IMG/VR virus record: IMGVR_UViG_3300030109_003704
Span: 1-21,929 of that record
From: a virus
Direction: 5' to 3' (one strand)
Length of the DNA: 21,929 bases
The stretch's first letter is position 1. Each line of letters starts with the position of its first letter. This document shows, one piece after another, positions 1,219-17,039 of this stretch. The position numbers and the translations under genes are program-made. The notes beneath the pieces are model-generated. The model was not told where the DNA came from. It saw only the letters and a program-made list of their open reading frames with translations, and ran no database searches.

Positions 1219-1240
1219 ATAACTTATTTTTAGAGGGAGC

Positions 1241-1269
1241 TTGACAGCTATGGGTAAATTTGGTATAAA
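1241..1269 (+). promoter_or_regulatory. Sigma70-like promoter P1
   Basis: Perfect -35 TTGACA at 1241-1246, 17-base spacer, -10 TATAAA at 1264-1269. The bases TG lie one position before the -10 box, giving an extended -10. It would start transcription near 1276, upstream of the 56-aa gene and the zinc protein. The same architecture recurs at six or seven other places in the window. Confidence 0.6.
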
Positions 1270-1411
1270 TAATATAATAAATCCTATTGCCAAGATACTA
1301 CTTACTAGTAGGAGACCTAAGCAGATAGTTCCTTCTAAAAAGGGTAAAGGCTCATATAATAGGGCTAAGGAGAAAAAATATGTCAAAGAACATAGAGCAA
1401 ATGATGACTAG
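1250..1411 (+). CDS. Small basic hypothetical protein (53 aa)
   Basis: An ATG frame of 54 codons lies 31 bases after the preceding stop, with AGGGAG at 1234-1239 about 10 bases upstream. The product is very basic (about a third Lys and Arg). It overlaps the next small frame by 32 bases. A strong promoter (1241-1269) covers its first codons, so it would only be translated from a longer upstream transcript. Without homologs I cannot exclude that it is spurious. Confidence 0.4.
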   Translation: MGKFGINNIINPIAKILLTSRRPKQIVPSKKGKGSYNRAKEKKYVKEHRANDD

Positions 1412-1550
1412 CCCAGTCTTTGAAAAAATTAGGGTTAGTCGCAAAGGTAGTCCAAAGATAAAGGACTATAGACAAACTAAAAGGCAATCTTTACGTAGGT
1501 CTAAACTAATTAGGCAAGAGAGAGCCTTAAACTATGGACAAACAACTTAA
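1380..1550 (+). CDS. Small basic hypothetical protein (56 aa)
   Basis: ATG 1380 has a consensus AAGGAGA at 1367-1373 with a 6-base spacing, better than most accepted genes here. The protein is Arg/Lys-rich with several Gln and no hydrophobic segment, suggesting nucleic acid or ribosome contact. It overlaps the preceding 53-aa frame by 32 bases and ends 15 bases before the zinc protein gene. Function unknown. Confidence 0.5.
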   Translation: MSKNIEQMMTSPVFEKIRVSRKGSPKIKDYRQTKRQSLRRSKLIRQERALNYGQTT

Positions 1551-1565
1551 GCAAAGGAGGTTAAT

Positions 1566-2777
1566 ATGTGTGGTAGTTGTGACAATCAGTGGAGAAGTAG
1601 AGAGTCCCATAAGTTCCACGATGGTAAATACCAACATCCAATATGGGTAAAAGACTCTGATATTTGGAAAGACGTACAAGATGCTATGCTTATAGACGAT
1701 ACTAAGTATCATTTTGTACACGTTTCTACAAATAATCCTGCTATGTTGGCTTATACAGAGAATGCTACTAAGGGTGAAGCTGACAGACAAACACCTATCA
1801 AGGTAGGTAGGTATCTCAATCGGTTTACTAAAGGATTGACTGAGGATAGAATACGGCAAGTTGTTGAAGCTCATAATTCTGAGTTTGACACAGGTGCATT
1901 AGAGATAGCCAAGACTACAAACGATATTGTATCGGTATATCTCAATGGTCCGAGTTCTTGTATGTCGCATTCTGTAAGTAATTTCTCTAGTTCTGAACAC
2001 CCTACAAGTGTGTATGGTGCTGGAGATTTGGGTGTTGCCTATGTTGGAGGTATAGCTAAACCTAAAGGTAGAGCTTTAATACACCTAGAGAAAAAAGTGT
2101 TCAGTACCATCTATGGTGATTCGGCTAGACTTGGGGCTATACTAGAAAAGAGTGGGTATAAACCTGATAGAGGTAGTGACTTTGAGGGTGCTAAGATTAA
2201 CAAGATAACTTGTGCAAACAATCCTGACTTCTATGTTATGCCCTATATGGATAATGACTATGGTGTAAAGTATTCTGAATGTAGAAAATACTTTACTATG
2301 TCTCGTAGTCCTGACTACTACGCACAGTTTACGCACGGTCTCAATGATGAGAATGGTTGGTGGTGTGCGTGGTGCGAGGATAACCAGAGTGATGGCACTG
2401 ACCCTATATATGTAGATGGTACAGGGGATATATGCGAATGTTGTTATGATGATAACTTCTTTTGTTGTGATAATTGCGGTGAACATAGCCACAACGATGA
2501 ATGGCGAACTGTGCATCACTTTGTAACTAGGACTATAACGACTGATGAGCTAGACCCCAAGACAAATACTTACATAAGACGTACTGAACGTTTTAGAGAT
2601 GAGAGGGGTGTATGTTCTTGTTGTGCAGAGGATAGTCACTTCTGTGAGTCTTGTGAGGAATACTATAATGAAGCTACACACTCTGAACACGATGACCAAT
2701 ACCGATGTGAGGATTGTCACAGCGAGCATGAAGAAGAAATTAAACTAGAAAAGGAGCAAGATAATAATGAAGAATAA
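1566..2777 (+). CDS. Cys-rich protein with multiple zinc-binding knuckles (403 aa)
   Basis: ATG 1566 follows a near-perfect AAAGGAGG at 1553-1560, one of the strongest binding sites in the window. The first ~260 residues have no motif I recognise. They contain a conserved-looking Gly/Tyr-rich stretch around residues 148-162 (VYGAGDLGVAYVGG) and 179-187 (FSTIYGDSA). The last third holds at least six Cys pairs: C267/C270, C290/C292/C293, C300/C301/C304, C350/C352/C353, C360/C363 and C381/C384, with interspersed His. This is a zinc ribbon or treble-clef-like array. The tail is very acidic (Glu/Asp). The N-terminus also has C2/C5. Reduced metal binding would fit a cytoplasmic role in protein or nucleic acid contact. 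Function unknown; the two-part architecture is clear. Confidence 0.75.
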   Translation: MCGSCDNQWRSRESHKFHDGKYQHPIWVKDSDIWKDVQDAMLIDDTKYHFVHVSTNNPAMLAYTENATKGEADRQTPIKVGRYLNRFTKGLTEDRIRQVVEAHNSEFDTGALEIAKTTNDIVSVYLNGPSSCMSHSVSNFSSSEHPTSVYGAGDLGVAYVGGIAKPKGRALIHLEKKVFSTIYGDSARLGAILEKSGYKPDRGSDFEGAKINKITCANNPDFYVMPYMDNDYGVKYSECRKYFTMSRSPDYYAQFTHGLNDENGWWCAWCEDNQSDGTDPIYVDGTGDICECCYDDNFFCCDNCGEHSHNDEWRTVHHFVTRTITTDELDPKTNTYIRRTERFRDERGVCSCCAEDSHFCESCEEYYNEATHSEHDDQYRCEDCHSEHEEEIKLEKEQDNNEE

Positions 2778-3765
2778 ACAAAGTAAAGTGAAAGAACTTT
2801 ACGAAATACTTAAGTTTTGCCGACCGGCAGATGGTGTTGGCGAATCTACAATGATTGATACTTTTATCAAACCACTAGGTGTAACTGAGGATAAAGCAGG
2901 TAACCTATACAAACGAATAGGCAAGAATCCTACTGTAATGTGGTCGTGCCATACGGATACTGTGCATGGATTCAATTCAAAAGAAACACAAACTATTACT
3001 GTAGATAGTGGGACTAATCCCACAAGGATATTCAAGACAGATAAAGAATGCTTGGGTGCTGATTGTGGTACTGGAGTGTGGCTTATGATGCAGATGATTA
3101 GGGCAGGTATACGTGGCTTATACATATTCCATAGAGGTGAAGAGTGTGGTGGTATAGGTTCTAACTATATCAGTTCTGATACACCTGAATTATTGGAGGG
3201 TATAGACAAAGCCATAGCCTTTGATAGGTATGGATACGATAGTGTTATTACCCATCAAGGAGGTGAAAGAACTTGTTCCGATGCATTTGGTAATGACCTT
3301 ATAGAATTACTGAGTAGTGTAGGTGGCTATCGTCTAGATAGCAATGGTTCGTTTACCGATACCCTAAACTATGCAGAACAGATATCGGAGTGTACCAATA
3401 TATCGGTAGGTTATTTCAATCAACATACATCTAAAGAATATCAAGATATATCCCACGCTCTAGCCTTATGCGAATTATTGTGTAGGCACGGCAATGAGTT
3501 TAGTAAGTTGGTTTCTAAACGTGACCCATCGGTAAGAGATTACAAATGGTATGGTACAAGTTGGAGAAATCAAAAGGTTTCACAGCAATATAGTGTATAC
3601 CCACAGTATGAAGATGTATTGGTGGAAAAGATACTTGACTTTCCTGAGATGGCGGCAGGTCTTCTAAGGAAATCATTTCATCAACTATCTGATGAGCAGA
3701 TTGCCCAAGCCATAGAAGATAGGTACTATATGTATGGTGAGGATGATGACCAAATACCTTGGTAA
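2767..3765 (+). CDS. M20/M28-like zinc metallopeptidase or deacylase
   Basis: The protein shows the full ligand order of the M20 clan of di-zinc hydrolases: H62-x-D64 (in CHTDTVHG), D99 as the bridging ligand (GADCGTG), E125-E126 (GEECGGIGS) as general base plus ligand, D153 (AFDRYG) and H220 (NQHTS). All expected metal residues are present, so it should be active. Family members remove terminal residues from peptides or cleave amide bonds of amino-acid conjugates; the substrate here cannot be read. At 332 residues it is shorter than usual M20 enzymes (350-450), and the residues between D153 and H220 leave little room for the usual lid/dimerisation domain. There is no signal peptide, so it acts in the host cytoplasm. 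It overlaps the zinc protein by 11 bases, with AAGGAGC at 2751-2757. The gene after it is the cell wall hydrolase, so a role in peptide salvage or murein-peptide trimming is possible (inference). Confidence 0.75.
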   Translation: MKNKQSKVKELYEILKFCRPADGVGESTMIDTFIKPLGVTEDKAGNLYKRIGKNPTVMWSCHTDTVHGFNSKETQTITVDSGTNPTRIFKTDKECLGADCGTGVWLMMQMIRAGIRGLYIFHRGEECGGIGSNYISSDTPELLEGIDKAIAFDRYGYDSVITHQGGERTCSDAFGNDLIELLSSVGGYRLDSNGSFTDTLNYAEQISECTNISVGYFNQHTSKEYQDISHALALCELLCRHGNEFSKLVSKRDPSVRDYKWYGTSWRNQKVSQQYSVYPQYEDVLVEKILDFPEMAAGLLRKSFHQLSDEQIAQAIEDRYYMYGEDDDQIPW

Positions 3766-3787
3766 CAATTAACAATAGGAGAAGTAA

Positions 3788-4219
3788 ATGATAGCTGAAG
3801 CATTAGTATGCCTAGCTTTAAATATATATCACGAAGCTAAGAACCAACCTTTAATTGGACAGATAGCCGTGGCACAAGTAACTATGAATAGAGTACGTGA
3901 TGACCGATACCCTAACACAGTATGTGAGGTAGTTAAGCAAGGTCCAACGTACTCGTGGAAACCTGACTATCCAGTACGTAATCGCTGTCAATTTAGTTGG
4001 TACTGTGATGGCAAGAGTGATAAACCTAAGCAAGAGTTTGCATGGGAACAAGCAATCACAGTAGCACATGGTGTCTATTATGGTAACCTAGATGACTTTG
4101 TAGAGGGTGCTACACACTACCATGCTCACTATGTCACACCTTCATGGGCGAGTAGTAAAACTTATATAACTAGAATAGAAGACCATATCTTCTATAGATG
4201 GGATATTAAATATGACTAA
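3788..4219 (+). CDS. SleB-type cell wall hydrolase, probable endolysin
   Basis: This is a 143-aa Hydrolase_2 (SleB/CwlJ) domain with nothing else attached. The family opens with a lytic transglycosylase-like catalytic Glu in a YHEA motif, here E16 in LNIYHEAKNQ. It is followed by GQIAVAQVTMNRV and later by CQFSWYCDG and GATHYHAHYV, all expected positions. The product cleaves peptidoglycan glycan strands. There is no signal peptide, so export would need a holin, or it could be a virion or late lysis enzyme. Start ATG has AGGAGAAG at 3777-3784. No holin is recognised beside it, although the 27-aa membrane peptide at 769 lies upstream. The next gene overlaps the stop by 8 bases. Confidence 0.9.
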   Translation: MIAEALVCLALNIYHEAKNQPLIGQIAVAQVTMNRVRDDRYPNTVCEVVKQGPTYSWKPDYPVRNRCQFSWYCDGKSDKPKQEFAWEQAITVAHGVYYGNLDDFVEGATHYHAHYVTPSWASSKTYITRIEDHIFYRWDIKYD

Positions 4220-4367
4220 ATACACATTTACTTTACATATGCTACAAAAACATGCCGAGAAATTGGGTGAGATAAAGCATAAAAAACACACTGAAGAATT
4301 TAAGAGTGAGTGGAATGAAATATTAGAAGATATATTGTTGCTTGCTTTACAAGGAAAGATTAAATAA
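4212..4367 (+). CDS. Small hypothetical protein (51 aa)
   Basis: ATG 4212 lies inside the last codons of the hydrolase gene. The frame is open for 52 codons and closes 2 bases before the HNH gene. The product is Lys/Glu/His-rich with an amphipathic C-terminal helix (residues 30-50, EFKSEWNEILEDILLLAL). Function unknown. Its tight fit between two good genes is the main support. The ribosome binding site is weak (GATGGGA upstream). Confidence 0.5.
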   Translation: MTKYTFTLHMLQKHAEKLGEIKHKKHTEEFKSEWNEILEDILLLALQGKIK

Positions 4368-4369
4368 TT

Positions 4370-4687
4370 ATGCCTTATGCTGACAATGCAATGAACCAAG
4401 CCTGTAAGAAACGTAGGTATGAACGTAACAAAACCTTTAGAAGAAGAGTAAAAAAATTAGTAGGGTGTCAAGGTACACTTACAGATAAATGTAATTGGGA
4501 AGGAGAAATTAGTCACGTTGCTTTACAGTTTGACCACAGAGAAGATGAGGACAAGGTAATAAATATTTGTAGAATGGATGGACATTCTATAGAAAATATT
4601 AAAAAAGAAATGAGAAAGTGTGATGTAGTATGTGCTAACTGTCACGCAATTCGAACTGAACAAAGGAGATTAAATAATTATGACTAA
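4370..4687 (+). CDS. HNH endonuclease
   Basis: A 105-aa protein with a basic N-terminal arm (many Arg and Lys, residues 12-30) and a compact HNH core: D55-H56 (FDHRED) and C88-A-N90-C91-H92 (VCANCHAIRTE). C88/C91 with C33/C41 could hold a structural zinc. Such small stand-alone HNH genes in phages act in DNA packaging, host-DNA degradation or as homing endonucleases. Here there is no adjacent terminase, which favours a free-standing nuclease. The ORF overlaps the next gene by 8 bases. Two compositional islands elsewhere in the window (polymerase, RNR) could be old targets of a homing enzyme, but linking them to this gene is speculation. Confidence 0.8.
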   Translation: MPYADNAMNQACKKRRYERNKTFRRRVKKLVGCQGTLTDKCNWEGEISHVALQFDHREDEDKVINICRMDGHSIENIKKEMRKCDVVCANCHAIRTEQRRLNNYD

Positions 4688-5611: not shown

Positions 5612-5613
5612 AT

Positions 5614-6474
5614 ATGCCACTTGATTTTATAGACGACAATAACTTACTACTAAATATGCCTACCAAACTAGATTTTGGTGTGCAATTTGAGCCAACTAAG
5701 GTGCAGGATAAAAAATATGTTATCAATGACGTTACAGGTGAATACTTGGGTGTTGTTGGTCATAATTTTAGTTGTGCAGACCATAGGTTATTCTTTCAGG
5801 GTGTAGAAGATGCCATGACGGAGAACTTACAGGACAGTCAGCTTGATGATGCCAAAGTAGTGTGGAGAAGTGCTAGGAATAACTCTTGGGGGATGATGGA
5901 TATTACCCTACCCAATGTAAAACGTACAATCATATCAGATAAGCATGAAACTAAAGTAAATCAACGATTTATAGCCCTTCATGCGATAGATGGCTCGTGT
6001 TCTAATCAGGTCTACTATGGTGCAATAGATACATTCTGTACAAATGGTATGATTACAGGAGATTATGATAAAGTTCGTAGAAAGAACAGTTCTAACTTCA
6101 GTATGGATAGATTTATAGACGAATTAAAGAACTCTAGGCGAGACTTCGATACTCAAATGGATATGTTTCAACAGTGGGCATTCAGTCCTATTGGTACATT
6201 TGATATTAAATCCATGTTAGATTCTTTGATGGGTTCGGAAAGTAAATCTGACAAGATGTATACTTTGTACAACCAAGAGGTATCTAAACGAGGTAAAACT
6301 GTGTTTGCTTTGTATAGTGCTTTCACTAACTATGCTAGTTATGCAGATGAGAGGAATGGATTTAGAATGCGAAACACTGGTAATGATACACAAGCCCAAA
6401 CAATGTGGCTTCGTGAGCAGGAAGTTGCTAAGTGGATTGCAAGCCCTCAGTTTAATCAGTTAGTGGCAGCATAA
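5614..6474 (+). CDS. DUF932 phage/plasmid protein
   Basis: A 286-aa protein matching the DUF932 family of phage and plasmid proteins. The hallmark F-C-T-N-G-M stretch is present (residues 145-150, in AIDTFCTNGMITG), preceded by GEYLGVVGHNF and VYYGAI. DUF932 proteins are widespread in phages and plasmids; no biochemical role is settled, though DNA-associated or plasmid-maintenance roles have been suggested. ATG 5614 has AAAGGAGA at 5601-5608. It overlaps the integrase start by 1 base (TAATG), so the two are co-translated. No membrane segment or signal peptide. Confidence 0.85.
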   Translation: MPLDFIDDNNLLLNMPTKLDFGVQFEPTKVQDKKYVINDVTGEYLGVVGHNFSCADHRLFFQGVEDAMTENLQDSQLDDAKVVWRSARNNSWGMMDITLPNVKRTIISDKHETKVNQRFIALHAIDGSCSNQVYYGAIDTFCTNGMITGDYDKVRRKNSSNFSMDRFIDELKNSRRDFDTQMDMFQQWAFSPIGTFDIKSMLDSLMGSESKSDKMYTLYNQEVSKRGKTVFALYSAFTNYASYADERNGFRMRNTGNDTQAQTMWLREQEVAKWIASPQFNQLVAA

Positions 6475-7376
6475 TGTTAAAAAATAAATCACTAAATGGA
6501 CTAGTGGAAAACTATTATTTATCGTATGATTTCAATAAGTTACGAGATGAAACTAAAGCACAATATAAATACTTTATGGGTGTGATGTTAGAAACAGTAG
6601 TACAAGATAAGCCATTAAAATTATGGAAGTTTAAAAATATTACTACTGGTGTAGCTAGGGAAGCATATGAAATGTGGTCTAAACGTGGCATTTATATGGC
6701 AAACCATGTGATGTCATGTTCACGAGTTGTGTACTCTCATGCGATGAATTTTGATTATTGTGAAGTCAATCCATTTAGTAATGTTAGAAAATATACCACT
6801 GAATCTAGAAGGGTGGTATGGACTAAGGATAACTTGTGTCAATTTCTTGACACTTGTTATTCTGATTTCAAGACTAGAAATATAGGATTGATAGCACATA
6901 TGGCATATGAATGGTGTCAAAGAATAGGCGATATGCGTATGTTAAATTGGGAGAGTATTGATTTACCTAATAAAAGAGTTAATATAGAACAATCTAAACG
7001 TAGGGCAGAGGTATTTTTACCTATTGAAGATGCTTTATGTGAGATGCTAGAGCAACAAGAGTCTGACTTTGGCTTTCAAGATTGGGTAGCACCTAATCCA
7101 GTCCCTAGAAAGGGCATATACAGCCCCTATAGTGTGTTTATGCTACCTAAACATGCTCGCAATATCATGGATAAGGCAGGATTGCCTACAGAATTAAGAT
7201 TATCTGACCTAAGACGTACAGGTACAATAGAAATGGTAGATGCAGGGGTAAGTATGGGACAAATAATGTCAGTAACAGGGCATGTTAATCCACAAAGTGT
7301 TAAACCATACTTAAAGAATACATTTGCTAGTGCAAACAGTGCTTTAAAACTTAGAAAGGAGAATGTGCATGGATAG
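6474..7376 (+). CDS. int: Tyrosine recombinase / phage integrase
   Basis: A 300-aa site-specific recombinase. The catalytic domain begins near residue 114. Visible catalytic positions are R150 (CQRIGDMRML), K175 (QSKRRAEV), R247 in SDLRRTG, H270 (VTGHVN) and the nucleophile Y279 (KPYLK), with the normal 9-residue H-to-Y step. The usual His of the HxxR box is Ser (S244). The N-terminal ~100 residues would be the core/arm-binding part. It could let the phage integrate into the host chromosome, as known for podoviruses of SAR11 and cyanobacteria that integrate at tRNA genes. I find no tRNA-like attachment sequence beside it. It sits between DUF932 and the replication genes and overlaps the next small gene by 8 bases. 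Confidence 0.9.
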   Translation: MLKNKSLNGLVENYYLSYDFNKLRDETKAQYKYFMGVMLETVVQDKPLKLWKFKNITTGVAREAYEMWSKRGIYMANHVMSCSRVVYSHAMNFDYCEVNPFSNVRKYTTESRRVVWTKDNLCQFLDTCYSDFKTRNIGLIAHMAYEWCQRIGDMRMLNWESIDLPNKRVNIEQSKRRAEVFLPIEDALCEMLEQQESDFGFQDWVAPNPVPRKGIYSPYSVFMLPKHARNIMDKAGLPTELRLSDLRRTGTIEMVDAGVSMGQIMSVTGHVNPQSVKPYLKNTFASANSALKLRKENVHG

Positions 7377-7545
7377 AAGAGAAAAAGTGGTGAAAAAACA
7401 ATTAGTAGATAGCTATGAGGACTTCTTAAATTCCTTTAATGAGGAAGATTTAGATGAAAAGTACATCGTGGATAAAGATTTTGACTTGACAGACGATGAT
7501 TTATCGTGTATAAGACATTCATCTGTCCGAGGGTTATATATATAG
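7369..7545 (+). CDS. Small acidic hypothetical protein (58 aa)
   Basis: I chose ATG 7369 because AAAGGAGA at 7355-7362 then sits 6 bases upstream; the in-frame ATG at 7363 would touch the binding site. The product is strongly acidic in its middle (residues 17-45, many Glu and Asp), with a basic N-terminus and a short hydrophobic C-terminus. Function unknown. Promoter P4 and an operator-like dyad lie in its 3' end. Confidence 0.6.
   Translation: MDRREKVVKKQLVDSYEDFLNSFNEEDLDEKYIVDKDFDLTDDDLSCIRHSSVRGLYI
7486..7514 (+). promoter_or_regulatory. Sigma70-like promoter P4 for the replication module
   Basis: TTGACA at 7486-7491, 17-base spacer, TATAAG at 7509-7514. A perfect 5-bp dyad (ACGAT, 5-base loop, ATCGT, 7493-7507) fills the spacer. 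The expected start near 7521 is about 40 bases before the first gene of the primase-helicase-polymerase block. Confidence 0.65.
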
Positions 7546-7560
7546 TATAAGGAGAATATA

Positions 7561-7731
7561 ATGTATTATGAAATAGATATAAAAGATTTAGAAGACTTAG
7601 ACAGACAAGCTATACTAGAGATAGTGGCAGATTATCTTGCCGATACGCATGGAGACATAGCTAGTTTTTCTATTAGTATAAATGGTGAGTACGAAGTATC
7701 GTCACTTCCATTTAAAGGAACAAAACATTGA
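7561..7731 (+). CDS. Small acidic hypothetical protein (56 aa)
   Basis: ATG 7561 follows AAGGAGA at 7549-7555. The 57-codon frame ends in TTGA, whose first three bases are the TTG start of the primase, a 4-base overlap typical of coupled genes. The protein is acidic, with a helical N-terminal half and a beta-like second half (ASFSISINGEYEV). Function unknown. It lies directly downstream of promoter P4. Confidence 0.6.
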   Translation: MYYEIDIKDLEDLDRQAILEIVADYLADTHGDIASFSISINGEYEVSSLPFKGTKH

Positions 7732-8495
7732 ATTTATACGAATACGTTCGTGATTTAGATGTGTCTATAGATGAGACTAAACGATTGAATTGCCCTGTTT
7801 GTGATGGTGTAAAGACATTTACTGTTACAAATAGTATGGGGACACGTTTATGGAACTGTTATAAAGCATCTTGTAGTGCTAGAGGTAAGGCTAGAATGCA
7901 TATGTCTATGGAAGATATGCGTAAGATAGTTGACTCTCGTAATGGTGCTACGAATAAAAAAGAACAGTTTGAATTACCCGAGTACATAACAAAACGAAAT
8001 GATAAACTTACTATGCATGATGTAAAAGACGATAGGGTAGTGTATCTAATACACGATATGTCAGGTGTGCTAGTAGATGCTGTAGGTAAATCTATTAATA
8101 AATATAGGATTCCTAAATGGAAAAGATATGGAAAAAGTAAAGTGCCTTATTTTGTGGCATTTGAAGACGATGGTACTATCATCAATGACCCACGAAAAGC
8201 GTCTGATGTGTGTGTTGTTGTAGAAGATTGCATAAGTGCTGTTACTTGTGCAAAACATAATGTGCCTGCCGTAGCCTTGCTAGGTACAAGTTTATTAGAA
8301 GAACACAAGCAATATCTAAGTGTATTTAAAAAAGTTATTATTGCTCTTGACCCTGATGCTTTGCCAAAGGCAGTTCTTATGGCTAAAGAATTACGTGGAT
8401 GGGTTGACAATGTAAAATTATTAAGTATAATAGATGACTTAAAGTATGAAAAAGAAACCGATATAAACAATTTAAAGGAGTTAGCATGGAATTAG
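7728..8495 (+). CDS. DNA primase (zinc-binding and TOPRIM), T7 gp4 N-half-like
   Basis: A 255-aa primase that makes RNA primers for lagging-strand synthesis. The zinc site is C22/C25 (CPVC) and C44/C49 (NCYKASC), the template-reading module of phage primases. The TOPRIM core shows E166 (VVVEDCIS) and D208-P-D210 (IIALDPDA), the metal-binding residues. The start is TTG 7728, inside the preceding stop, with AAAGGA at 7714-7719; the first ATG would delete most of the zinc domain. In T7 the primase is fused to the helicase; here it is a separate polypeptide whose 3' end overlaps the helicase start by 10 bases. Promoter P5 lies in its last 100 bases. Confidence 0.85.
   Translation: MNLYEYVRDLDVSIDETKRLNCPVCDGVKTFTVTNSMGTRLWNCYKASCSARGKARMHMSMEDMRKIVDSRNGATNKKEQFELPEYITKRNDKLTMHDVKDDRVVYLIHDMSGVLVDAVGKSINKYRIPKWKRYGKSKVPYFVAFEDDGTIINDPRKASDVCVVVEDCISAVTCAKHNVPAVALLGTSLLEEHKQYLSVFKKVIIALDPDALPKAVLMAKELRGWVDNVKLLSIIDDLKYEKETDINNLKELAWN
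8404..8431 (+). promoter_or_regulatory. Consensus sigma70-like promoter P5
   Basis: Both boxes are perfect: TTGACA at 8404-8409 and TATAAT at 8426-8431, with a 16-base spacer. It lies in the primase gene, 54 bases before the helicase start, and would give separate expression of helicase and downstream genes. Confidence 0.65.
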
Positions 8496-9709: not shown

Positions 9710-9712
9710 AAA

Positions 9713-11755
9713 ATGAAGCTAGTACTTGATGTAGAAAATACTGTTACTAATCGTGATGGTAAAATGCACTTAGACCCATTTGAGCCTACTAATACGTTAG
9801 TAATGGTTGGAATGTTAGATGAGGTAGGTAAAGAAACACAAGTTGTATTTGACCATTCTGAAAAGTCTAATACATTAAATGGTACTAAAATGGTACAGTA
9901 TACATTAGATAATACAACTCTTCTTATAGGACACAATATCGCATATGATTTAGTGTGGCTGTGGGAGTCTGGCTTTACTTATACAGGTAAAGTATTTGAC
10001 ACAATGCTAGGGGAGTACGTACTACAAAGAGGTATTAAACAACCTCTATCCTTAGAAGCCTGTGCTGAAAGATATGAGTTGGATACAAAGAAACAAGATA
10101 CTTTGAAAGAATATTTCAAGAAGGGTTATACAACAAGAGATATACCTTTTGATGAGTTGTCTGAATATTTATCTTGTGATTTGTTCGCTACAAAACAACT
10201 CTATGATAAGCTAGAATCTAGACTTCAAAGTGCAGAAGACCAAGTGTTAAGAGATACTATAGACTTAACGAATGAGTTGTGTCCAGTCATAGCCAAGATA
10301 TATCAACGTGGTTTTTCTATTAACGTAGATGCTTTAGATGCAGTTAAAAAAGAGTTTGAAGAAGAAAGAACAGAAATACAAAAAGCATTGGGTACAATGG
10401 TTACAACTTTGATGGGCGATACACCTATTAATTTAAATAGTCCTGAGCAACTATCTACTGTTATCTATAGTAGAAAGCCTATAGATAAATCTATGTGGGC
10501 AAATAACTTTAGTCAATATATGAAGTCTGAGGATTACAGAAAAGAAGTAAGAACAAATAGTTTTGTAGTATATAAAACTAAAGCAGAACAGTGTAATAAT
10601 TGTAAGGGTAAAGGATATTATACAAGAACTAAAAAAGATGGAAATCCTTTTGCTAAACCTTCTGTATGTCATTCTTGTAACAAAGCAGGGTATCATTTTA
10701 TTGATACAAATAAACAAGCAGGATTAAAATTTAATGCTCCCAATGCAAAGTGGGTAAGTGCTAATGGTTTTAGTACATCTAAATCTAATCTAGAAGTATT
10801 AGAAAAAGCTGCTAGAGAAAAGGGTATGAAACTAGCAGAAGAATTCTTATCTAAAGTACGTAGACTTAGTGCAGTAGATACATATCTATCCTCATTTGTT
10901 GAGGGTATAAGAACACATCAGAAGCCTGATGGAAAGTTACATGTTAGATTATTACAGCATAGAACATCTACAGGGCGACTGAGTGGAGCAGACCCCAATA
11001 TGCAAAATATGCCTAGAGGGGGTACATTTCCTGTAAAAAGAGTATTTAAATCTCAATGGGAAAATGGTAAAATATTAGAAGCTGATTTTGCTCAATTAGA
11101 GTTTAGAGCTGCAGCTTATTTGTCACAAGATACAACAGCTATAGAGGAGATAGAAAATGGTTTCGATGTTCATGCGTATACCGCAAAAGTTATTTCGGAT
11201 AATGGGCAGGCTACCACTCGTCAGGAAGGAAAAGCGCATACGTTCGCCCCACTCTACGGAGCTACAGGGTTTGGGAGGACAGCTGCTGAAGCAGCGTATT
11301 ATGAACAGTTCACGGAAAAGTACAAAGGGGTCGCAATTTGGCATTCCAGATTGGCTAAGGAGGCTTTAAACTGTGGTAGAATTACCACACCTTCAGGTAG
11401 ACAATTTGAATTTCCTGACATAGAAAGAAGAAGAAATGGTACTGTTTCACACTTCACACAGATAAAGAATTACCCTGTACAAAGTTTTGCTACTGCAGAT
11501 ATAGTACCTGTAGCATTACTTTATATAGAAAAGAAGTTGACTAACATGAAGTCTTGTATAGTCAACACAGTACACGATAGTATAGTAATTGATGTTCACC
11601 CCGATGAGGAGAATCAAGTTATTTATACTATTGATACTACAAATAAAACATTAAATGATATAATAGAAAGCAAGTGGAATATAACATTTAATGTTCCATT
11701 AGCACTAGAAGCAAAAATAGGTAATAATTGGCTTGACACAGTTGATGTTTTATGA
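9713..11755 (+). CDS. polA: Family A DNA polymerase with 3'-5' exonuclease and DnaJ-like zinc finger
   Basis: The 680-aa replicative polymerase. The exonuclease domain is at the N-terminus: D6-V-E8 (LVLDVEN), D79 (GHNIAYDLVW) and D156 (YLSCDLFATKQL). Polymerase motif A has D458 (ILEADFAQLEFR). Motif B is R503...K507...F511...Y515-G516. Motif C has H621-D622 (NTVHDSIV). Between exonuclease and palm lies an insertion with C294/C297 and C319/C322; the first pair is CNNCKGKG, the CxxCxGxG signature of the DnaJ central domain. A partial DnaJ domain at this position is described for HMO-2011-type marine podoviruses. The residue matching E. coli Phe762 is F511. Bases from about 11161 to 11400, encoding the fingers/motif B, have higher G+C and different codon use than the rest. 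Promoter P6 overlaps the stop. Confidence 0.95.
   Translation: MKLVLDVENTVTNRDGKMHLDPFEPTNTLVMVGMLDEVGKETQVVFDHSEKSNTLNGTKMVQYTLDNTTLLIGHNIAYDLVWLWESGFTYTGKVFDTMLGEYVLQRGIKQPLSLEACAERYELDTKKQDTLKEYFKKGYTTRDIPFDELSEYLSCDLFATKQLYDKLESRLQSAEDQVLRDTIDLTNELCPVIAKIYQRGFSINVDALDAVKKEFEEERTEIQKALGTMVTTLMGDTPINLNSPEQLSTVIYSRKPIDKSMWANNFSQYMKSEDYRKEVRTNSFVVYKTKAEQCNNCKGKGYYTRTKKDGNPFAKPSVCHSCNKAGYHFIDTNKQAGLKFNAPNAKWVSANGFSTSKSNLEVLEKAAREKGMKLAEEFLSKVRRLSAVDTYLSSFVEGIRTHQKPDGKLHVRLLQHRTSTGRLSGADPNMQNMPRGGTFPVKRVFKSQWENGKILEADFAQLEFRAAAYLSQDTTAIEEIENGFDVHAYTAKVISDNGQATTRQEGKAHTFAPLYGATGFGRTAAEAAYYEQFTEKYKGVAIWHSRLAKEALNCGRITTPSGRQFEFPDIERRRNGTVSHFTQIKNYPVQSFATADIVPVALLYIEKKLTNMKSCIVNTVHDSIVIDVHPDEENQVIYTIDTTNKTLNDIIESKWNITFNVPLALEAKIGNNWLDTVDVL
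11161..11400 (+). other. G+C-rich codon-usage island in the polymerase gene
   Basis: By hand count about 48% G+C over these 240 bases (57% in 11221-11280), against 25-38% in sampled lines on each side. Codons such as GCG, ACG, TCG, GGG and GTC appear here and are rare elsewhere in the gene. The tract encodes motif B and the O-helix. It is in frame and unbroken. Confidence 0.7.
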
Positions 11756-11761
11756 TATAAC
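11733..11761 (+). promoter_or_regulatory. Sigma70-like promoter P6
   Basis: TTGACA at 11733-11738, 17-base spacer, TATAAC at 11756-11761, with TG one base before the -10 box (extended -10). The -10 box begins immediately after the polymerase stop and the gene 11792-12724 starts 30 bases later. It is the best-placed promoter in the set. Confidence 0.7.
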
Positions 11762-11791
11762 AAAAAAACTTAACAGAGGAGAAGTTTATAT

Positions 11792-12724
11792 ATGAATGAA
11801 ATAATGACTATAGACACTGATAATTATTCAGCTATGTCCAAAGCTATGGGCTTTGCTGGAGAAGCAAAAAAGAGTGGAGGTAAGACAGTTACTCTACCTC
11901 GCTTTAGAATATGGCATCAACCTATAATGGGTCAAGCTAAAGTAAATGGTAAGACTGCTAACGTAGAAGTAGTAGAAGGTGGGTCTTATCGTCTTGAAAC
12001 ACCATCTAAAGATGAGGGTGGTGAATCTACCTTTGCATTTGCTAAGAGTGCAAAGATACGAGTATTCGCACAAAGGTTTATGTGGCGAAGATTTGTGGCT
12101 AGTAAAAATCCTAAGCCTAATGAGCCAAAGGGTAGCTTCCATAGAACACTTATGGCAGACAACCTAAGTATTGATTTAAAAGACAATACAGGTGGATTTA
12201 ATTGTGGTAAGCCTTCAGGTTGGATTAAAGACTTTAAAGCTCTACCACAGAATACGCAGGACTTACTTAGACAAATAAAGAAAGTTAGAATATTGTTTGG
12301 GTATGCAGAATTAATTAATCCTGTAGATGCTAGTGGTAATCCTACTAAAGTACCACTACAACCTGTTATATGGGAAATTGACAATCGTAATGCTGTTGCT
12401 CATATGGGAGAAATATTATCCCAAATAGATAAAAAGCAAAGGTTGCCTATACAACATTTCATTGACCTAGAAACAGAAAAGAATGAGTTACCTAATGGTA
12501 CTAGTTATTATACACCAGTAGCAAAAGTTGACTTTAAAAATTCTGTTGAAATTGTTGATGCAGACCAAGATGTATTCAAAGATTTTATGGAATACATTAA
12601 AAACTACAATGAGTATATCAATAATCAATGGCTAGAAAAGTCAGGAGATGAACCACCAATATCAAATAATGATATGAAGGTTGTTGAGTCTTTCGTTGAT
12701 ATTGACAATACTGAGGTAGCATAA
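11792..12724 (+). CDS. Conserved replication-module protein, possible ssDNA-binding role (310 aa)
   Basis: A 310-aa protein between the polymerase and the exonuclease, the place occupied by ssDNA-binding or annealing proteins in T7-like phages. I recognise the overall pattern (GGSYRLETP, FAQRFMWRRF, MADNLSIDLKDNTGGFNCGKP, IKKVRILFGYAEL, PVIWEIDNR) as shared by marine phage proteins of unknown function. The N-terminal two thirds look beta-rich; the C-terminal ~50 residues are acidic, as in ssDNA-binding proteins that contact polymerase, although the terminal Phe of T7 gp2.5 is missing. ATG 11792 has AGAGGAGA at 11774-11781. It overlaps the exonuclease by 1 base. ssDNA binding is inferred from position and tail only. 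Confidence 0.6.
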   Translation: MNEIMTIDTDNYSAMSKAMGFAGEAKKSGGKTVTLPRFRIWHQPIMGQAKVNGKTANVEVVEGGSYRLETPSKDEGGESTFAFAKSAKIRVFAQRFMWRRFVASKNPKPNEPKGSFHRTLMADNLSIDLKDNTGGFNCGKPSGWIKDFKALPQNTQDLLRQIKKVRILFGYAELINPVDASGNPTKVPLQPVIWEIDNRNAVAHMGEILSQIDKKQRLPIQHFIDLETEKNELPNGTSYYTPVAKVDFKNSVEIVDADQDVFKDFMEYIKNYNEYINNQWLEKSGDEPPISNNDMKVVESFVDIDNTEVA

Positions 12725-13581
12725 TGCAACACCCTGCTGAATTGTCGCTACACTCCTATATGAACAAAGCACTAAAAGGCACTTCTGTAGTGTCAACTAA
12801 AACTGTAAATCAAATAGCTACGGATGTAGCTAATGCAGTTAAGCGACAATTTGGTGGGGGAAAGCGTGGTGAGTTTAGGTTACGTATGTCTAACATAGGT
12901 AAACCTACTTGCCAACTTTGGTTTGAAAAAAATAAACCTGAGAAAGCTTTACCTCGCCCTAATAATTTTTTAATGAACATGATACTTGGAGACATAGTAG
13001 AAGCTGTATTTAAAGGATTGTTAACTGAAGCAGGAGTAAAGTATGATAATTCAGACACTGTATCTCTTGACGTTGGCGATACAGCTATTAAAGGTACATA
13101 TGATTTAGTTTTAGATGGAGCAGTTGATGATGTTAAATCAGCTTCTGATTGGTCATATAAATATAAGTTTGAGTCTTTTGATAAGTTAAAAGAAGGAGAT
13201 GACTTTGGTTATGTAGGACAACTTGCAGGTTATGCAAAAGCCAGCAATAAAAAAGCTGGTGGTTGGTGGGTTGTAAATAAAGCTAATGGAAAATTTAAAT
13301 ATATTTCTGCTGAAGGTATTGACATTGATAAAGAAATAGACTATATAAAAGATACAGTTAAAACAGTAAATAAAAATGAGTTTAAAAGATGTTTTAATTT
13401 TGAAGATGAGTTGTTTTATGGTAAGCCTACAGGCAACAAAATCTTAGGGAAAACTTGTGGTTTTTGTGACTTTAGATTTTCTTGTTGGACTTCTCTAGAA
13501 GAAAAACCTTCTAAAGTATCTAAAGCTAAAGAACCTAAAATTGTACCCTATTTGAACCTTTCAAAGGAGAATGTATTATGA
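12724..13581 (+). CDS. Cas4/RecB-like exonuclease with Fe-S cluster cysteines
   Basis: A 285-aa PD-(D/E)XK nuclease. Residues in order: G89-D90-x-x-E93, D127 (KGTYDLVLDG), D136-V-K138 (DDVKSA) and Q166-x-x-x-Y170 (GQLAGY), the Cas4/AddB-type nuclease core. Four Cys frame the domain, C63 (PTCQLWF) and C245/C248/C254 (CGFCDFRFSC), the usual ligands of a 4Fe-4S cluster that staples the fold. It would resect or degrade DNA ends, the counterpart of T7 gp6 exonuclease in host DNA breakdown and recombination. It follows the probable DNA-binding protein by a 1-base overlap and is followed by endonuclease I two genes on. The end overlaps the next ATG by 4 bases. Confidence 0.85.
   Translation: MQHPAELSLHSYMNKALKGTSVVSTKTVNQIATDVANAVKRQFGGGKRGEFRLRMSNIGKPTCQLWFEKNKPEKALPRPNNFLMNMILGDIVEAVFKGLLTEAGVKYDNSDTVSLDVGDTAIKGTYDLVLDGAVDDVKSASDWSYKYKFESFDKLKEGDDFGYVGQLAGYAKASNKKAGGWWVVNKANGKFKYISAEGIDIDKEIDYIKDTVKTVNKNEFKRCFNFEDELFYGKPTGNKILGKTCGFCDFRFSCWTSLEEKPSKVSKAKEPKIVPYLNLSKENVL
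13319..13347 (+). promoter_or_regulatory. Possible sigma70-like promoter P7
   Basis: TTGACA at 13319-13324, 17-base spacer, TATATA at 13342-13347. The -10 box is a weaker match. It lies inside the exonuclease gene about 230 bases before the next start, so it is less convincing than the others. Confidence 0.35.
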
Positions 13582-13781: not shown

Positions 13782-13784
13782 CTG

Positions 13785-14237
13785 ATGGCAGCTTATAGTG
13801 CTACCCAATTAGCACGTAAACATGGGTATAAGAGTGGTTTGGAAGATAAAGTTGCTACTTATCTGAAGACACACAAAATAAATTTCCTATATGAAAAAGT
13901 AAAGATTGAGTGGGAAGACCTTTCATATCGCACTTATACCCCTGATTTTATACTTTCTAATGGTATTATAATTGAGACAAAAGGTAGATTTTTAGTTGCA
14001 GATAGACGTAAACATTTATGTATTAAAAAGCAACATCCACAATTAGATATTAGATTTGTGTTTACAAATAGTAAATCTAAATTACGAAAAGGAGCAAAGT
14101 CTTCATACTCTGATTGGTGTATTAAATATGGATTCAGATATTTTGACAGAATTATTCCTGAAGACTGGTTAAAAGAAAAAGGTATAAATAAACATTCTAA
14201 GTTTATAAAGTTTCAACAAACTAAAATAAGGAGATAG
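13785..14237 (+). CDS. Endonuclease I, T7 gp3-type Holliday junction resolvase
   Basis: A 150-aa match to the phage endonuclease I family. The four catalytic residues of T7 gp3 (E20, D55, E65, K67) have direct counterparts E20 (KSGLEDKV), D54 (YTPDFIL), E64 and K66 (IIIETKGR), at almost the same numbers. The enzyme cleaves branched DNA as a dimer, resolving replication and recombination intermediates before packaging and breaking host DNA. ATG 13785 lies 3 bases after the preceding stop; no strong binding site is seen, so it may be coupled to the coiled-coil gene. It is complete in length compared with T7 gp3 (149 aa). Confidence 0.93.
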   Translation: MAAYSATQLARKHGYKSGLEDKVATYLKTHKINFLYEKVKIEWEDLSYRTYTPDFILSNGIIIETKGRFLVADRRKHLCIKKQHPQLDIRFVFTNSKSKLRKGAKSSYSDWCIKYGFRYFDRIIPEDWLKEKGINKHSKFIKFQQTKIRR

Positions 14238-14240
14238 TCC

Positions 14241-14561
14241 ATGGTAGTAAACAATGAAGATTTCTATATACAGTTAATTCCGTATATGGATAAACATGAT
14301 AATTGGTTAGGTAATATGCAAGTTAATATTGTTACCTCTAATAAAAATCCTATAGATGATGATGGATACAATCAAATGTTTTATATGTGTCAGCTAATAT
14401 CAGCTATAGTTCCTTATATGAACGATAATCCTGAAATAATACCTGAACTTGAAAAGTATATCCAAGAAGAGAAAAAAGAAAAGGAAGTACTTAAAGTAGT
14501 TGAAAAAACTGGTAACTTAATTAAACTAGGAAAATATTCAAAAACAAATGGGAGTGCATAA
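14241..14561 (+). CDS. Hypothetical acidic protein (106 aa)
   Basis: Unknown function. ATG 14241 has AAGGAGA at 14228-14234. The protein has a beta/alpha-looking N-terminal half (GNMQVNIVTS, then YNQMFYMCQLISAIVPYM) and a Glu/Lys-rich helix at residues 65-87. It overlaps the DUF3310 gene by 1 base. Confidence 0.6.
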   Translation: MVVNNEDFYIQLIPYMDKHDNWLGNMQVNIVTSNKNPIDDDGYNQMFYMCQLISAIVPYMNDNPEIIPELEKYIQEEKKEKEVLKVVEKTGNLIKLGKYSKTNGSA

Positions 14562-14953
14562 TGAGTTATATAAAAGCTGTAGAAAAGCATAAGAAAAAGA
14601 AAAATAAAACAGAACAACAAACTCACGATGAATTTTTAAGTGAGCAAATGAAAAAAGGAGCAGAGGAAGTTATGACAGATGGTTTATTTACAAAGTTTGT
14701 AGGAGAAAAAGATTTCTTTTGGGACAAACCAAAGTCCGATTCAGTAAACAGCCCACCCCATTATAATCAATATGGTATTGAATGCATTGATGCTATACAG
14801 GCAGCTACTGCAGATGGATTTGAATTTTATCTACAAGGAAATATTCTTAAGTATCTGTGGAGATACAATTATAAGAATGGTATTGAAGATTTAAAAAAAG
14901 CCCAATGGTATCTTAATAAATTACTAGAGGTTAAAGATGGCAATAAAAGCTAA
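14561..14953 (+). CDS. DUF3310 protein, T7 gp1.7-like
   Basis: The C-terminal ~70 residues are a clear DUF3310 domain: VNSPPHYNQYGIECIDAI, then YLQGNILKYLWRYNYKNG and DLKKAQWYLNKLL. T7 gp1.7, which carries this domain, is a nucleotide kinase acting on dTMP and dGMP. Whether the short domain alone (130 aa here, about 196 in T7) has that activity is unclear. The first ~55 residues are a Lys-rich, low-complexity helix. It lies directly before ribonucleotide reductase with one tiny gene between, so a role in dNTP supply fits. Confidence 0.85.
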   Translation: MSYIKAVEKHKKKKNKTEQQTHDEFLSEQMKKGAEEVMTDGLFTKFVGEKDFFWDKPKSDSVNSPPHYNQYGIECIDAIQAATADGFEFYLQGNILKYLWRYNYKNGIEDLKKAQWYLNKLLEVKDGNKS

Positions 14954-15104
14954 GGTACTAATGACTATAACCATAGACGAGGATGAATATCCTGTACCTG
15001 TAGATGGTCAAGTAGATGAAGAAATACAAGATGCCCTAAAAGAATTCTTTCACGACATTGAAGGTATGAAAGTTACTAATGTAAGAATAATAACGGAGAA
15101 CTAA
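14937..15104 (+). CDS. Small acidic hypothetical protein (55 aa)
   Basis: An ATG frame of 56 codons overlaps the DUF3310 gene by 17 bases and ends 3 bases before the reductase. AGAGG lies 6 bases upstream of the ATG. The product is acidic with a beta-alpha-beta pattern (VLMTITIDEDE, a helix, then KVTNVRIITEN), a compact ferredoxin-like or phage accessory fold. Function unknown. Confidence 0.55.
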   Translation: MAIKAKVLMTITIDEDEYPVPVDGQVDEEIQDALKEFFHDIEGMKVTNVRIITEN

Positions 15105-15107
15105 CGA

Positions 15108-17039
15108 ATGAATAATATAACAGAATTACCCACCGATTATCAAAACTTTATAGCACTATCTAGGTATGCTAGATGGCTTCCCGAAGAAGGAAGAAGAGAA
15201 GTATGGTCTGAAACTGTAAATAGATACTTAGACTTTATGGAAAACCATTTAGAAAAGGAACACAACTTTTCTTTATCATATGAGGTGCGACAAGATTTAT
15301 TGGAGTATATTACAGATTTAAAAGTAATGCCTAGTATGAGAGCTTTGATGACATCAGGCAATGCTTTGGACAGATGCCATGTAGCAGGTTATAACTGCTC
15401 TTATCTTCCAGTAGATAGTCCACGTTCTTTTGATGAGACTATGTATATACTTATGTGTGGTACAGGTGTAGGTTTTTCTGTTGAAAGAGAGAATGTTGAT
15501 AAGCTACCTATAATTAATGAACACTTTGAAGAAAGCGAAACAATTGTTAAGGTAGGTGATTCTAGACAAGGTTGGGCAAAAGCATTACGTGAACTATTAG
15601 CTATGCTCTATGCAGGACAAATACCTAAATGGGACATATCTGATGTAAGACCTGCCGGTGCTAGATTAAAAACATTTGGTGGCAGAGCATCAGGACCTGC
15701 ACCTTTAGTAGAATTATTTGAGTTTTGTATTGCGATATTTAAGAATGCATCAGGAAGAAGATTGTATCCTATTGAATGTCACGATATAATGTGTAAGATT
15801 GGTGAAGTTGTTGTAGTCGGAGGGGTACGACGTAGCGCACTTATCAGTCTTTCCAATCTTGGTGATGACCAAATGCGTCATGCTAAGTCTGGACAGTGGT
15901 GGGAAACTGAAGGGCAACGTGCGCTAGCTAATAACAGCGTTGCCTATAAAGGTAAAGTACAAATGGAAACATTCATGCGTGAATGGTTATCCCTAGTAGA
16001 AAGTAAGTCAGGTGAACGTGGTATCTTTAATCGTAAATCTGCAAAAGAACAAGCTATGAGAAATGGAAGAAGAAAAACCAATTATGAATTTGGTTGTAAT
16101 CCTTGTAGTGAAATAATATTACGTCCTTACCAATTCTGTAACTTATCTGAAGTTGTAGTTAGACAAGACGATACAATAGAAAGCCTAACAAAAAAAGTAA
16201 CAATGGCTACTATACTTGGTACGTTTCAGTCTACGCTTACAGACTTTAAATATCTACGTAAGGTATGGAAAGATAATACAGAAGAAGAAAGATTATTAGG
16301 TGTATCTATTACAGGTATAATGGATAATAAATTACTTAATTTTAAAAGTGAGTCCTTGCCTAGTTTACTAACACAATTAAAGGAGACAGCAATTGAAACT
16401 AACAGAATATTTGCAGAACAGCTTAATATACCACAGTCTACTGCGATTACATGTGTTAAGCCTAGTGGAACTGTTTCTCAACTCGTTGATAGTGCGAGTG
16501 GTATACATGCTCGACATAGCAAGTATTATATTCGTACTGTACGTGGTGACAACAAAGACCCTCTTACACAGTTTATGATTGATAGTGGCATACCTAATGA
16601 GCCTGATGTTATGAAGCCTGATAGCACAACTGTATTTAGTTTTCCTATGAAGTCACCTGAAGGTGCTATTACTAGAAATGATATGTCGGCTTTAGAACAA
16701 TTACAATTATGGCAGGTATATCAAAAGTATTGGTGTGAACATAAACCATCTGTAACGATAACTGTCAAGGAAGATGAGTGGATGGATGTAGGAGCATGGG
16801 TATATAAAAACTTTGATGAAATATCAGGCATAAGTTTTTTACCACATAGTGACCACACTTATGCACAAGCACCCTATCAAGAGGTAGGTAAAAAGGTTTA
16901 TACCAGTGTTTTAAATAAAATTCCTGAAATTAATTGGAATAACTTGACAAATTATGAAAAAGAGGATACAACTACAGGGTCAAAAGAGCTAGCATGCACT
17001 GCTGGCGTTTGCGAGGTCGTAGACATAGAGGCAGCATAA
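15108..17039 (+). CDS. nrdJ: Class II (adenosylcobalamin-dependent) ribonucleoside-triphosphate reductase
   Basis: A 643-aa monomeric B12-dependent reductase of the Lactobacillus RTPR type. It converts ribonucleotides to deoxyribonucleotides for phage DNA. Catalytic positions: C97 (GYNCSYLP), N331-P-C333-S-E335 (GCNPCSE) with thiyl-radical C333's redox pairing supplied by C97 and C344 (QFCNLSE), and the C-terminal shuttle pair C630/C635 (LACTAGVCEV). GGVRRSALISLSN and KPSGTVSQLVDSASG are present. It is shorter than the bacterial enzyme (~740 aa), as usual for phages. No second subunit is needed, and no oxygen is needed, but B12 from the host is. A G+C-rich island at 15800-15960 covers the GGVRRSA region. 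ATG 15108 has CGGAG at 15094-15098. Promoter P8 lies near its end. Confidence 0.95.
   Translation: MNNITELPTDYQNFIALSRYARWLPEEGRREVWSETVNRYLDFMENHLEKEHNFSLSYEVRQDLLEYITDLKVMPSMRALMTSGNALDRCHVAGYNCSYLPVDSPRSFDETMYILMCGTGVGFSVERENVDKLPIINEHFEESETIVKVGDSRQGWAKALRELLAMLYAGQIPKWDISDVRPAGARLKTFGGRASGPAPLVELFEFCIAIFKNASGRRLYPIECHDIMCKIGEVVVVGGVRRSALISLSNLGDDQMRHAKSGQWWETEGQRALANNSVAYKGKVQMETFMREWLSLVESKSGERGIFNRKSAKEQAMRNGRRKTNYEFGCNPCSEIILRPYQFCNLSEVVVRQDDTIESLTKKVTMATILGTFQSTLTDFKYLRKVWKDNTEEERLLGVSITGIMDNKLLNFKSESLPSLLTQLKETAIETNRIFAEQLNIPQSTAITCVKPSGTVSQLVDSASGIHARHSKYYIRTVRGDNKDPLTQFMIDSGIPNEPDVMKPDSTTVFSFPMKSPEGAITRNDMSALEQLQLWQVYQKYWCEHKPSVTITVKEDEWMDVGAWVYKNFDEISGISFLPHSDHTYAQAPYQEVGKKVYTSVLNKIPEINWNNLTNYEKEDTTTGSKELACTAGVCEVVDIEAA
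15800..15960 (+). other. G+C-rich codon-usage island in nrdJ
   Basis: By hand count about 45% G+C over 15781-15960, against about 32% in the 60-base lines on either side (15721-15780 and 16021-16080). Codons GTC, GGG, CGA, CGT, AGC and GCG cluster here. It encodes residues about 231-285 including GGVRRSALISLS. The frame is intact. Confidence 0.6.
16944..16972 (+). promoter_or_regulatory. Possible sigma70-like promoter P8
   Basis: TTGACA at 16944-16949, 17-base spacer, TACAAC at 16967-16972 (one base off the TATAAC seen at P3 and P6). It lies near the 3' end of nrdJ and would transcribe the last gene group (17135 onward), with the 17074-17086 stem-loop in its leader. Confidence 0.4.

Follow-up and report, generated by a model that had tools for sequence, protein, structure and literature searches.

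Paired sigma70-type boxes along the early and replication genes of an HMO-2011-type marine phage suggest promoters for the host RNA polymerase

Introduction

The transcription of phage genes by the RNA polymerase of the host is a known and ordinary strategy. In phage T5, as reported in PMC7472727, all the gene classes are read by the host sigma70 RNA polymerase. In T7, host promoters at the left end (annotated as A1, A2, A3, B, and C) serve the early genes, after which the phage switches to its own RNA polymerase. On the bacterial side, PMC8407463 reports that more than 60% of alphaproteobacterial sigma70 promoters lack a T at -7 and that their commonest spacer is 17 bases, and it proposes that the protein CarD aids the promoters without -7T. 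For RpoD of Caulobacter, the consensus given in PMC8144410 is TTGaCgS / GCtANAWC. The present paper concerns a stretch of phage DNA of 21,929 bases (hereafter, the window), taken from the 28,848-base virus record IMGVR_UViG_3300030109_003704, in which TTGACA is followed at six places, 16 or 17 bases further on, by TATAA; these paired boxes are candidate promoters of the host type.

The candidates resemble the alphaproteobacterial promoters of PMC8407463 in the TTG of the -35 box, the predominance of the 17-base spacer, and a -10 box that mostly lacks the -7T, but they belong to a phage genome, their -35 boxes lie inside coding sequence, and they are known from sequence. TATAAC, the commonest -10 box at the end of the polymerase gene, fits the TANAWC of the Caulobacter consensus, whereas the -35 box is TTGACA and the GC before the -10 box is mostly absent. 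T5 belongs to another phage group; the present case resembles it in having host-type promoters for both early and late genes, and the HMO-2011 type is not known to have a temporal switch or RNA polymerase-binding proteins. The host promoters for early genes in T7 are matched here, whereas no phage RNA polymerase was found in the HMO-2011-type records. In the mainly open-access literature, including word searches of PMC9038755 and PMC6918029, no account of the promoters of HMO-2011-type phages was found.

The Phage and Its Relatives

The window has a G+C content of 34.4% and, by polymerase homology and gene order, is from an HMO-2011-type marine phage. Its DNA polymerase is 67–68% identical, over the full length, to those of the roseophages CRP-345 and CRP-1 and of the SAR116 phage HMO-2011. 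The genes stand in the order of the HMO-2011 type, namely small genes, a cell-wall hydrolase, a glycosylase-like gene, a DUF932 gene, integrase, primase, helicase, polymerase, a 310-residue protein, a Cas4-like exonuclease, endonuclease I, a B12-dependent ribonucleotide reductase, and MazG, after which comes a late gene on the other strand.

The relatives were the best 80 of 599 candidate IMG/VR contigs together with 11 named isolates. Gene junctions were surveyed in these 91 loci by taking the homologues that reach the gene end and scoring the paired boxes with at most one mismatch, spacers of 12–14 bases serving as the control; in the isolates, paired boxes were counted over the first 50 kb of each genome. 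The recorded hosts of the 11 isolates are SAR116, Roseobacter-group, and Pelagibacter bacteria. All three of these groups are alphaproteobacteria.

Paired Boxes and Chance

TTGACA occurs 16 times on the + strand of positions 1-18370, as the first-pass annotation of this DNA had counted, and 7 times on the - strand of the same stretch, with 24 copies on both strands of the whole window. Synonymous-codon shuffles give a mean of 7.6 copies on the + strand and reach 16 in 3 of 3000. Six of the copies form exact pairs with TATAA (N being any base), at the coordinates and spacers that had been reported:

1241..1269, + strand: possible promoter, intergenic, before the start at 1380; TTGACA-N17-TATAAA
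4831..4859, + strand: possible promoter in open reading frame (ORF) 4680-4967; TTGACA-N17-TATAAA
5393..5421, + strand: probable promoter at the end of the pyrimidine-dimer-glycosylase-like gene; TTGACA-N17-TATAAC
7486..7514, + strand: predicted integrase-primase promoter in the 3' part of the small ORF 7363-7545; TTGACA-N17-TATAAG
8404..8431, + strand: possible promoter at the end of the primase gene; TTGACA-N16-TATAAT, a 12/12 consensus match
11733..11761, + strand: predicted polymerase-end promoter; -35 TTGACA at 11733-11738, N17, -10 TATAAC at 11756-11761

A seventh exact pair, at 13319, has a spacer of 19 to TATAA (17 to TATATA), and the - strand has no exact pair with spacers of 15–19. 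The claim that such a number lies far beyond chance is borne out. Given that TATAA is found at 0.33% of + positions, 0.10 pairs would be expected for 16 boxes and two spacings, and the binomial chance of at least six is 6e-10; dinucleotide shuffles, with spacers of 15–19, yield a mean of 0.34 pairs and a maximum of 2 in 100. A shuffled-codon control had been named in advance as a possible refutation, and it never reaches the observed number: for the five coding -35 sites, the mean is 0.32 and the maximum 3, with five reached in 0 of 5000 shuffles, and when the intergenic site at 1241 is held fixed and spacers of 16–18 are allowed, the mean is 1.32 and the maximum 4, with six reached in 0 of 3000. 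The spacing spectrum of the + strand of the window has five exact pairs at 17 bases and, with up to two mismatches in the twelve bases, nine at 17 as against 0–6 at the other spacings from 8 to 29.

All six sites thus have the -35 box of the sigma70 type in its exact form and a spacer of 17 +/- 1. Only the two boxes and the spacing are common to them, the spacers being different in sequence, which agrees with the earlier view that they are not copied repeats; direct repeats of at least 17 bases in 1-18400 are two-copy families only, of 17–27 nucleotides, and there is therefore no phage-type promoter repeat. The description of the sites as near-identical promoters in gene ends holds for the boxes, but the last base of the -10 box differs from site to site (A, A, C, G, T, and C in the order listed), and the site at 1241 is intergenic.

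The same architecture is found in the relatives. Among the 80 contigs, the polymerase strand has 95 exact pairs of the form TTGACA-Nd-TATAA at d = 17 and 0–7 at every other d from 5 to 40, homologous copies included, and on the opposite strand there are at most two at any d.

The Polymerase-End Site

The best conserved site lies where the polymerase gene ends and the next gene begins:

9713..11755, + strand: DNA polymerase A gene, with the predicted promoter in its last codons (PHROG 17, E 1.6e-94)
11792..12724, + strand: gene expected to be read from that promoter; 310 residues, no Pfam or PHROG family

Here, the -35 box falls within the codons CTT GAC ACA, and the 17-base spacer ends in the TGA stop codon (11753-11755), which is the TGn of an extended -10 box. 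If one mismatch is allowed, 85 of 89 relatives have the pair (73 of them exactly), as compared to 10 of 89 at the control spacing of 12-14 and none in antisense. In the homologues with the residues LDT, the Leu codon is CTT in 76 of 77 and the next codon is GAC in 77 of 77, versus 21.9% and 45.9% over the remainder of the gene, and the Thr codon is spread over all four possibilities. The polymerase stop is TGA in 86 of 89, versus 37% of 771 stops of other genes, and TATAAC follows directly in most. As a guard against shared ancestry, synonymous choices were examined column by column: among 392 conserved degenerate codon columns of 84 polymerases, including that of the window, the only invariant ones are the CTT and GAC of the -35 box, and the Thr, Lys, Asp, and Val codons that come after it vary. 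Moreover, among the matches listed to TTGACA-N17-TATAACTA in IMG/VR, TGGC precedes 65 of 118, as it does at the polymerase end (120 were listed, and L048 and L057, which are already in the set of relatives, were left uncounted); with a control spacer of 14 bases, it precedes 0 of 120 among the matches listed.

The layout differs in a few isolates. In CRP-603, CRP-2 (stop TAG), and CRP-207 (stop TGA), the -10 box starts two bases past the stop codon and is still 16 bases from the -35 box. In HTVC033P, a small extra gene follows the polymerase, and TTGACA-N17-TATACA precedes the gene after it, which is homologous to that of the 310-residue protein of the window (profile E 4.4e-30). These arrangements suggest that the box is tied to the downstream gene rather than to the polymerase reading frame. 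As a conserved DNA element, the polymerase-end site is very well supported as a putative host-type sigma70 promoter, and a promoter so placed can limit codon choice in a replication gene throughout a phage group.

A homologue of the 310-residue protein stands after the polymerase in 11 of 11 isolates (profile E 1.7e-15 or better). Its AlphaFold2 model has a predicted local distance difference test score (pLDDT) of 77.7. At E <= 0.001, this model matches nothing in the PDB and 39 entries in BFVD, two of them labelled single-stranded DNA-binding protein and the rest without a functional name. These models hint weakly that the product is perhaps single-strand-DNA-binding-like.

Elsewhere in the polymerase gene, codons 470-498 (11120-11206) form a stretch of about 30 codons with low synonymous variation in the 84 polymerases (mean excess identity of 0.48-0.62 versus 0.19 for the gene), beyond what protein conservation gives; another embedded element or a recent exchange is possible.

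The Integrase-Primase and Glycosylase Sites

The site at 7486 lies between two recognizable genes:

6474..7376, + strand: tyrosine integrase gene (Pfam Phage_integrase, 1.6e-16), whose C-terminal codons hold the corresponding predicted promoter in many relatives
7728..8495, + strand: DNA primase gene, 3' of the predicted 7486 promoter (PHROG 47, 5.1e-14)

The 7486 pair is exact in L009, the sole locus that has ORF 7363-7545. In the other relatives, the corresponding promoter would mostly be within the integrase C-terminus or just past it, and 44 of 65 integrase ends have a match with no more than one mismatch (3 at the control spacing, 1 in antisense). TTGAC there spans Leu-Thr codons, the Leu codon being TTG in 42 of 46 aligned sequences and in 98% of the 58 with the motif, versus 20% in the gene body. 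At this position in its integrase gene, the window has TTAAAA; together with the exact pair at 7486, this observation suggests that the promoter has moved downstream. The integrase-primase junction site is well supported, on these sequence grounds, as a candidate host-type sigma70 promoter.

The evidence at the glycosylase end is more mixed. Nine of 24 relatives have the exact pair and 12 of 24 have it with at most one mismatch (control 1), and the codon choices are biased in the -35 region, with Val as GTT in 10 of 14 versus 11% elsewhere in the gene and Asp as GAC in 16 of 16 versus 50%. The Tyr codon in the -10 box is TAT in 60% versus 55% and shows no bias. The protein motif VDK...RYN accounts for part of the match, since 8 of the 16 sequences with the motif lack the full promoter. 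The 5393 site is therefore partly supported as a putative promoter of this type.

Three observations were made on the neighbouring genes. Inside the integrase gene, an inverted repeat, GTGTCAATTTCTTGACAC, at 6836-6853 puts one TTGACA on each strand. Upstream of it, a DUF932-family gene occupies 5614-6474 (E 1.2e-08). In the primase gene, codons 159-170 (8202-8237) show low synonymous variation in 51 primases (mean 0.59 versus 0.26), with GTT GTT GAG GAC TGT GTG AGT in most of the 30 shown; the window deviates from it.

Unconfirmed and Rejected Sites

The pairs at 8404, 4831, and 1241 are plausible but unconfirmed as host-type sigma70 promoters. At 8404, 3 of 77 relatives match with at most one mismatch (control 0), and only L009 has an exact pair in the same place. 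The ORF around 4831 is weakly PD-(D/E)XK-like, under the Pfam cut-off, and 0 of 6 distant homologues keep the pair. The pair at 1241 is flanked on one side by ORF 895-1218 and on the other by the start at 1380, and the 91 loci contain no homologue of the ORF on either side.

Two further sites had been proposed as weaker promoters:

13319..13347, + strand: weak candidate, TTGACA-N17-TATATA (N19 to TATAA)
16944..16972, + strand: weak candidate in the ribonucleotide reductase gene, TTGACA-N17-TACAAC

The strings exist as described, but they are little conserved. At 13319, TTGAC followed by TATA at a distance of 16-20 bases persists in 5 of 76 homologous stretches. At 16944, 3 of 28 relatives have a match with at most one mismatch near the gene end (control 0), in the same place only in L008. 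Both were rejected as promoters that are features of the group and are probably a coincidence of coding.

The junction survey gave two further matches in the relatives. At the end of the hydrolase gene, 9 of 14 relatives have the pair with at most one mismatch (control 0), and the window itself has none there. At the junction of the gene at 14241-14561, the count is 28 of 46 (control 4), with a -10 box that is mostly TAGAA; a promoter there was rejected because the match arises from a conserved peptide and has TAGAA where TATAA would stand. After this result, the criterion of at most one mismatch was no longer accepted on its own.

The Base at -7

Only one of the six window sites has T at -7, as do 0 of 85 matches at the polymerase end, 4 of 54 at the integrase end, and 1 of 10 at the glycosylase end. 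The sites therefore mostly lack the E. coli-type -10 box, TATAAT with its T at -7, and have the alphaproteobacterial form, which takes any base there. At the polymerase end, where 90 gene ends were examined, the base is C in 85 of 85 matches, which comprise 58 distinct sequences. The integrase end has G in 46 of 54 matches and the glycosylase end has C in 9 of 10; the base is also C in all six of the clear coat-gene promoters described below. The base after TATAA at the conserved sites, mostly C or G, agrees with what is expected for the isolates' alphaproteobacterial hosts. One might go further and suppose that the lineage actively maintains a base other than T at -7, which would place replication and capsid genes on the CarD-assisted class of promoter of alphaproteobacterial hosts and tie the phage to a growth-linked host factor, the promoter at the stop codon then balancing polymerase against the product of the next gene, perhaps a DNA-binding protein; we hold this extension to be doubtful. 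No CarD-like protein (PF02559) was found in the 16 phage records searched by profile.

Late Genes, Operons, and the Search for a Phage Polymerase

The first-pass annotation had confined transcription by the host RNA polymerase to the early and replication genes, for which the conserved sites speak in its favour. Its scope is widened by the coat gene, which lies beyond the window on the late strand and is preceded in 6 of 11 isolates (HMO-2011, CRP-345, CRP-1, CRP-603, CRP-2, and CRP-207) by TTGACA-N16-TA[T/A/C]AAC and then TAT, with at most one mismatch, 192-230 bases 5' of the start codon. Of 3300 stretches of equal length taken at random from the late strand, only 2% match as well; the other five isolates have 2-3 mismatches. 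This suggests that host-type promoters are not confined to the early and replication genes.

The many small operons that had been proposed did not stand. A terminator scan of 1-18600 on both strands yields 12 candidates where 6.4 are expected; the + strand has 4 of the 12, each of them within a gene. Terminators bounding small operons were rejected, as none between the segments is convincing. Consequently, internal promoters along a co-directional array would replace the small operons.

The supposition that the phage has no polymerase of its own is upheld as far as the profiles reach. Single-subunit RNA polymerase (PF00940) and sigma70 region 2 (PF04542) were each found in 0 of 16 records (the 11 complete isolates, four IMG/VR records of 47.7-54.9 kb, and the 28.8-kb record of the window), although a diverged enzyme could be missed in this way; of the controls, PF00940 finds the T7 polymerase and PF04542 matches 10 of 14 control genomes.

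Weighing the Explanations

The sites are very probably promoters recognized by the host RNA polymerase through its housekeeping sigma70, and they are distributed over early and replication genes that run in the same direction. What speaks for this is the two-box architecture at 17 +/- 1, the sense orientation, and the conservation of the DNA at the polymerase end, at the integrase-primase junction, and partly at the glycosylase end. During infection, the host RNA polymerase would bind the paired boxes and add transcripts before single replication genes, with no need of terminators between them, so that the promoters would act as internal boosts along the array. At the polymerase end, transcription would be expected to begin some 6-7 bases past the -10 box and to feed the next gene, and the late coat gene on the other strand would likewise be read by the host enzyme. 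The result is a concrete map of the transcript starts to be expected in HMO-2011-type phages.

Several observations weigh against this interpretation. Conservation extends to two or three of the eight named sites: loss in relatives had been named as a possible refutation, and the site at 11733, that of the 7486 type, and partly that at 5393 are kept, but the others are not. When the polymerase, integrase, and glycosylase sites are removed and the early regions of the isolates added, a modest 14 pairs remain at d = 17 versus 0-5 at other spacings (copies included), so that a few conserved places account for most of the signal. When the -10 box is loosened to TA.AA, the highest peak lies at 18 (44, versus 21 at 17), probably made by the conserved peptide of the 14241-14561 gene and not by promoters. 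There is no exact pair with a spacer of 16-18 in the early regions of CRP-3, CRP-212, CRP-235, and CRP-738, whose polymerases have 36-38% identity; at the polymerase end, CRP-235, CRP-212, and CRP-738 have two mismatches, and the box is absent from CRP-3, with four. The early region of HMO-2011 also lacks an exact pair, its polymerase-end -35 box being TTGACG. Invariant synonymous columns occur without any proposed promoter in 3 of 120 columns of 51 primases, in 2 of 354 of 29 reductases, and in 1 of 121 of 33 DUF932 proteins; since there are such columns elsewhere, in sets with fewer sequences, the column test alone is no proof. A scan of 1-18600 for E. coli-type promoters, with T at -7 required, finds 74 where 79.4 are expected; the lack of an excess is due to the T demanded at -7, which leaves 8404 as the only one of the six that could be listed, and a scan of this kind can miss the promoters of alphaproteobacterial phages. 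Finally, cobavirus CRP-4, described in PMC6918029 as being without an RNA polymerase, has no such pairs. A rule by which the absence of the polymerase goes with the pairs thus failed on CRP-4; in CRP-7, which has an RNA polymerase, the sense strand is free of such pairs and each antisense strand contains one.

One alternative is that the pairs are functionless by-products of codon usage and conserved peptides in an AT-rich genome. This would fit 13319, 16944, and, in part, 5393, most of whose bases come from the peptide; the near-match in 28 of 46 at the 14241-14561 junction shows that peptides can make such matches, and invariant synonymous codons are also found away from any proposed promoter. 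As a general explanation, it is nevertheless highly improbable, since codon shuffles never reach the observed number, the synonymous choices in the -35 boxes are fixed or strongly biased, and the -10 boxes at the polymerase end and before the coat gene are non-coding; at 11733, the invariant synonymous codons and the conserved non-coding -10 box contradict it. Another possibility, only slightly less improbable in our estimate, is that the boxes are read by a diverged polymerase or sigma factor of the phage, for example a virion-borne one. Many proteins of the phage are without a family, the record of the window is a 28.8-kb fragment, and the window holds a 1099-residue late protein without a Pfam or PHROG match. 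Against such an enzyme stand the 0/16 for PF00940 and PF04542, with the T7 control positive and sigma found in 10/14 controls, and the fit of the boxes to the bacterial consensus rather than to a contiguous phage motif. The 1099-residue protein, moreover, is predicted to be mostly helical, at low confidence (pLDDT 49.7), and on this model a phage RNA polymerase within it was rejected, if weakly.

The sites might also be dispersed operators for a repressor or other regulator of the phage that resemble promoters by chance; stoperator is the name for dispersed operator sites of this sort. In favour of this are their scattered positions close to gene ends, their single orientation, and the integrase of the phage; according to PMC6918029, CRP-3 of the HMO-2011 group can integrate at a tRNA gene. 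This is the least probable of the alternatives, since only the sigma70 boxes and the spacing are common to the sites, the spacers differ, the 17 +/- 1 spacing and the boxes are those of sigma70 promoters, and no near-identical contiguous repeat is found beyond the two-copy families of 1-18400. Transcription by the host RNA polymerase is thus the explanation adopted here.

The late protein of 1099 residues is encoded at 18367-21666 on the - strand. It is 18-42% identical to 11 proteins or fragments in the relatives and is possibly an ejection or internal virion protein.

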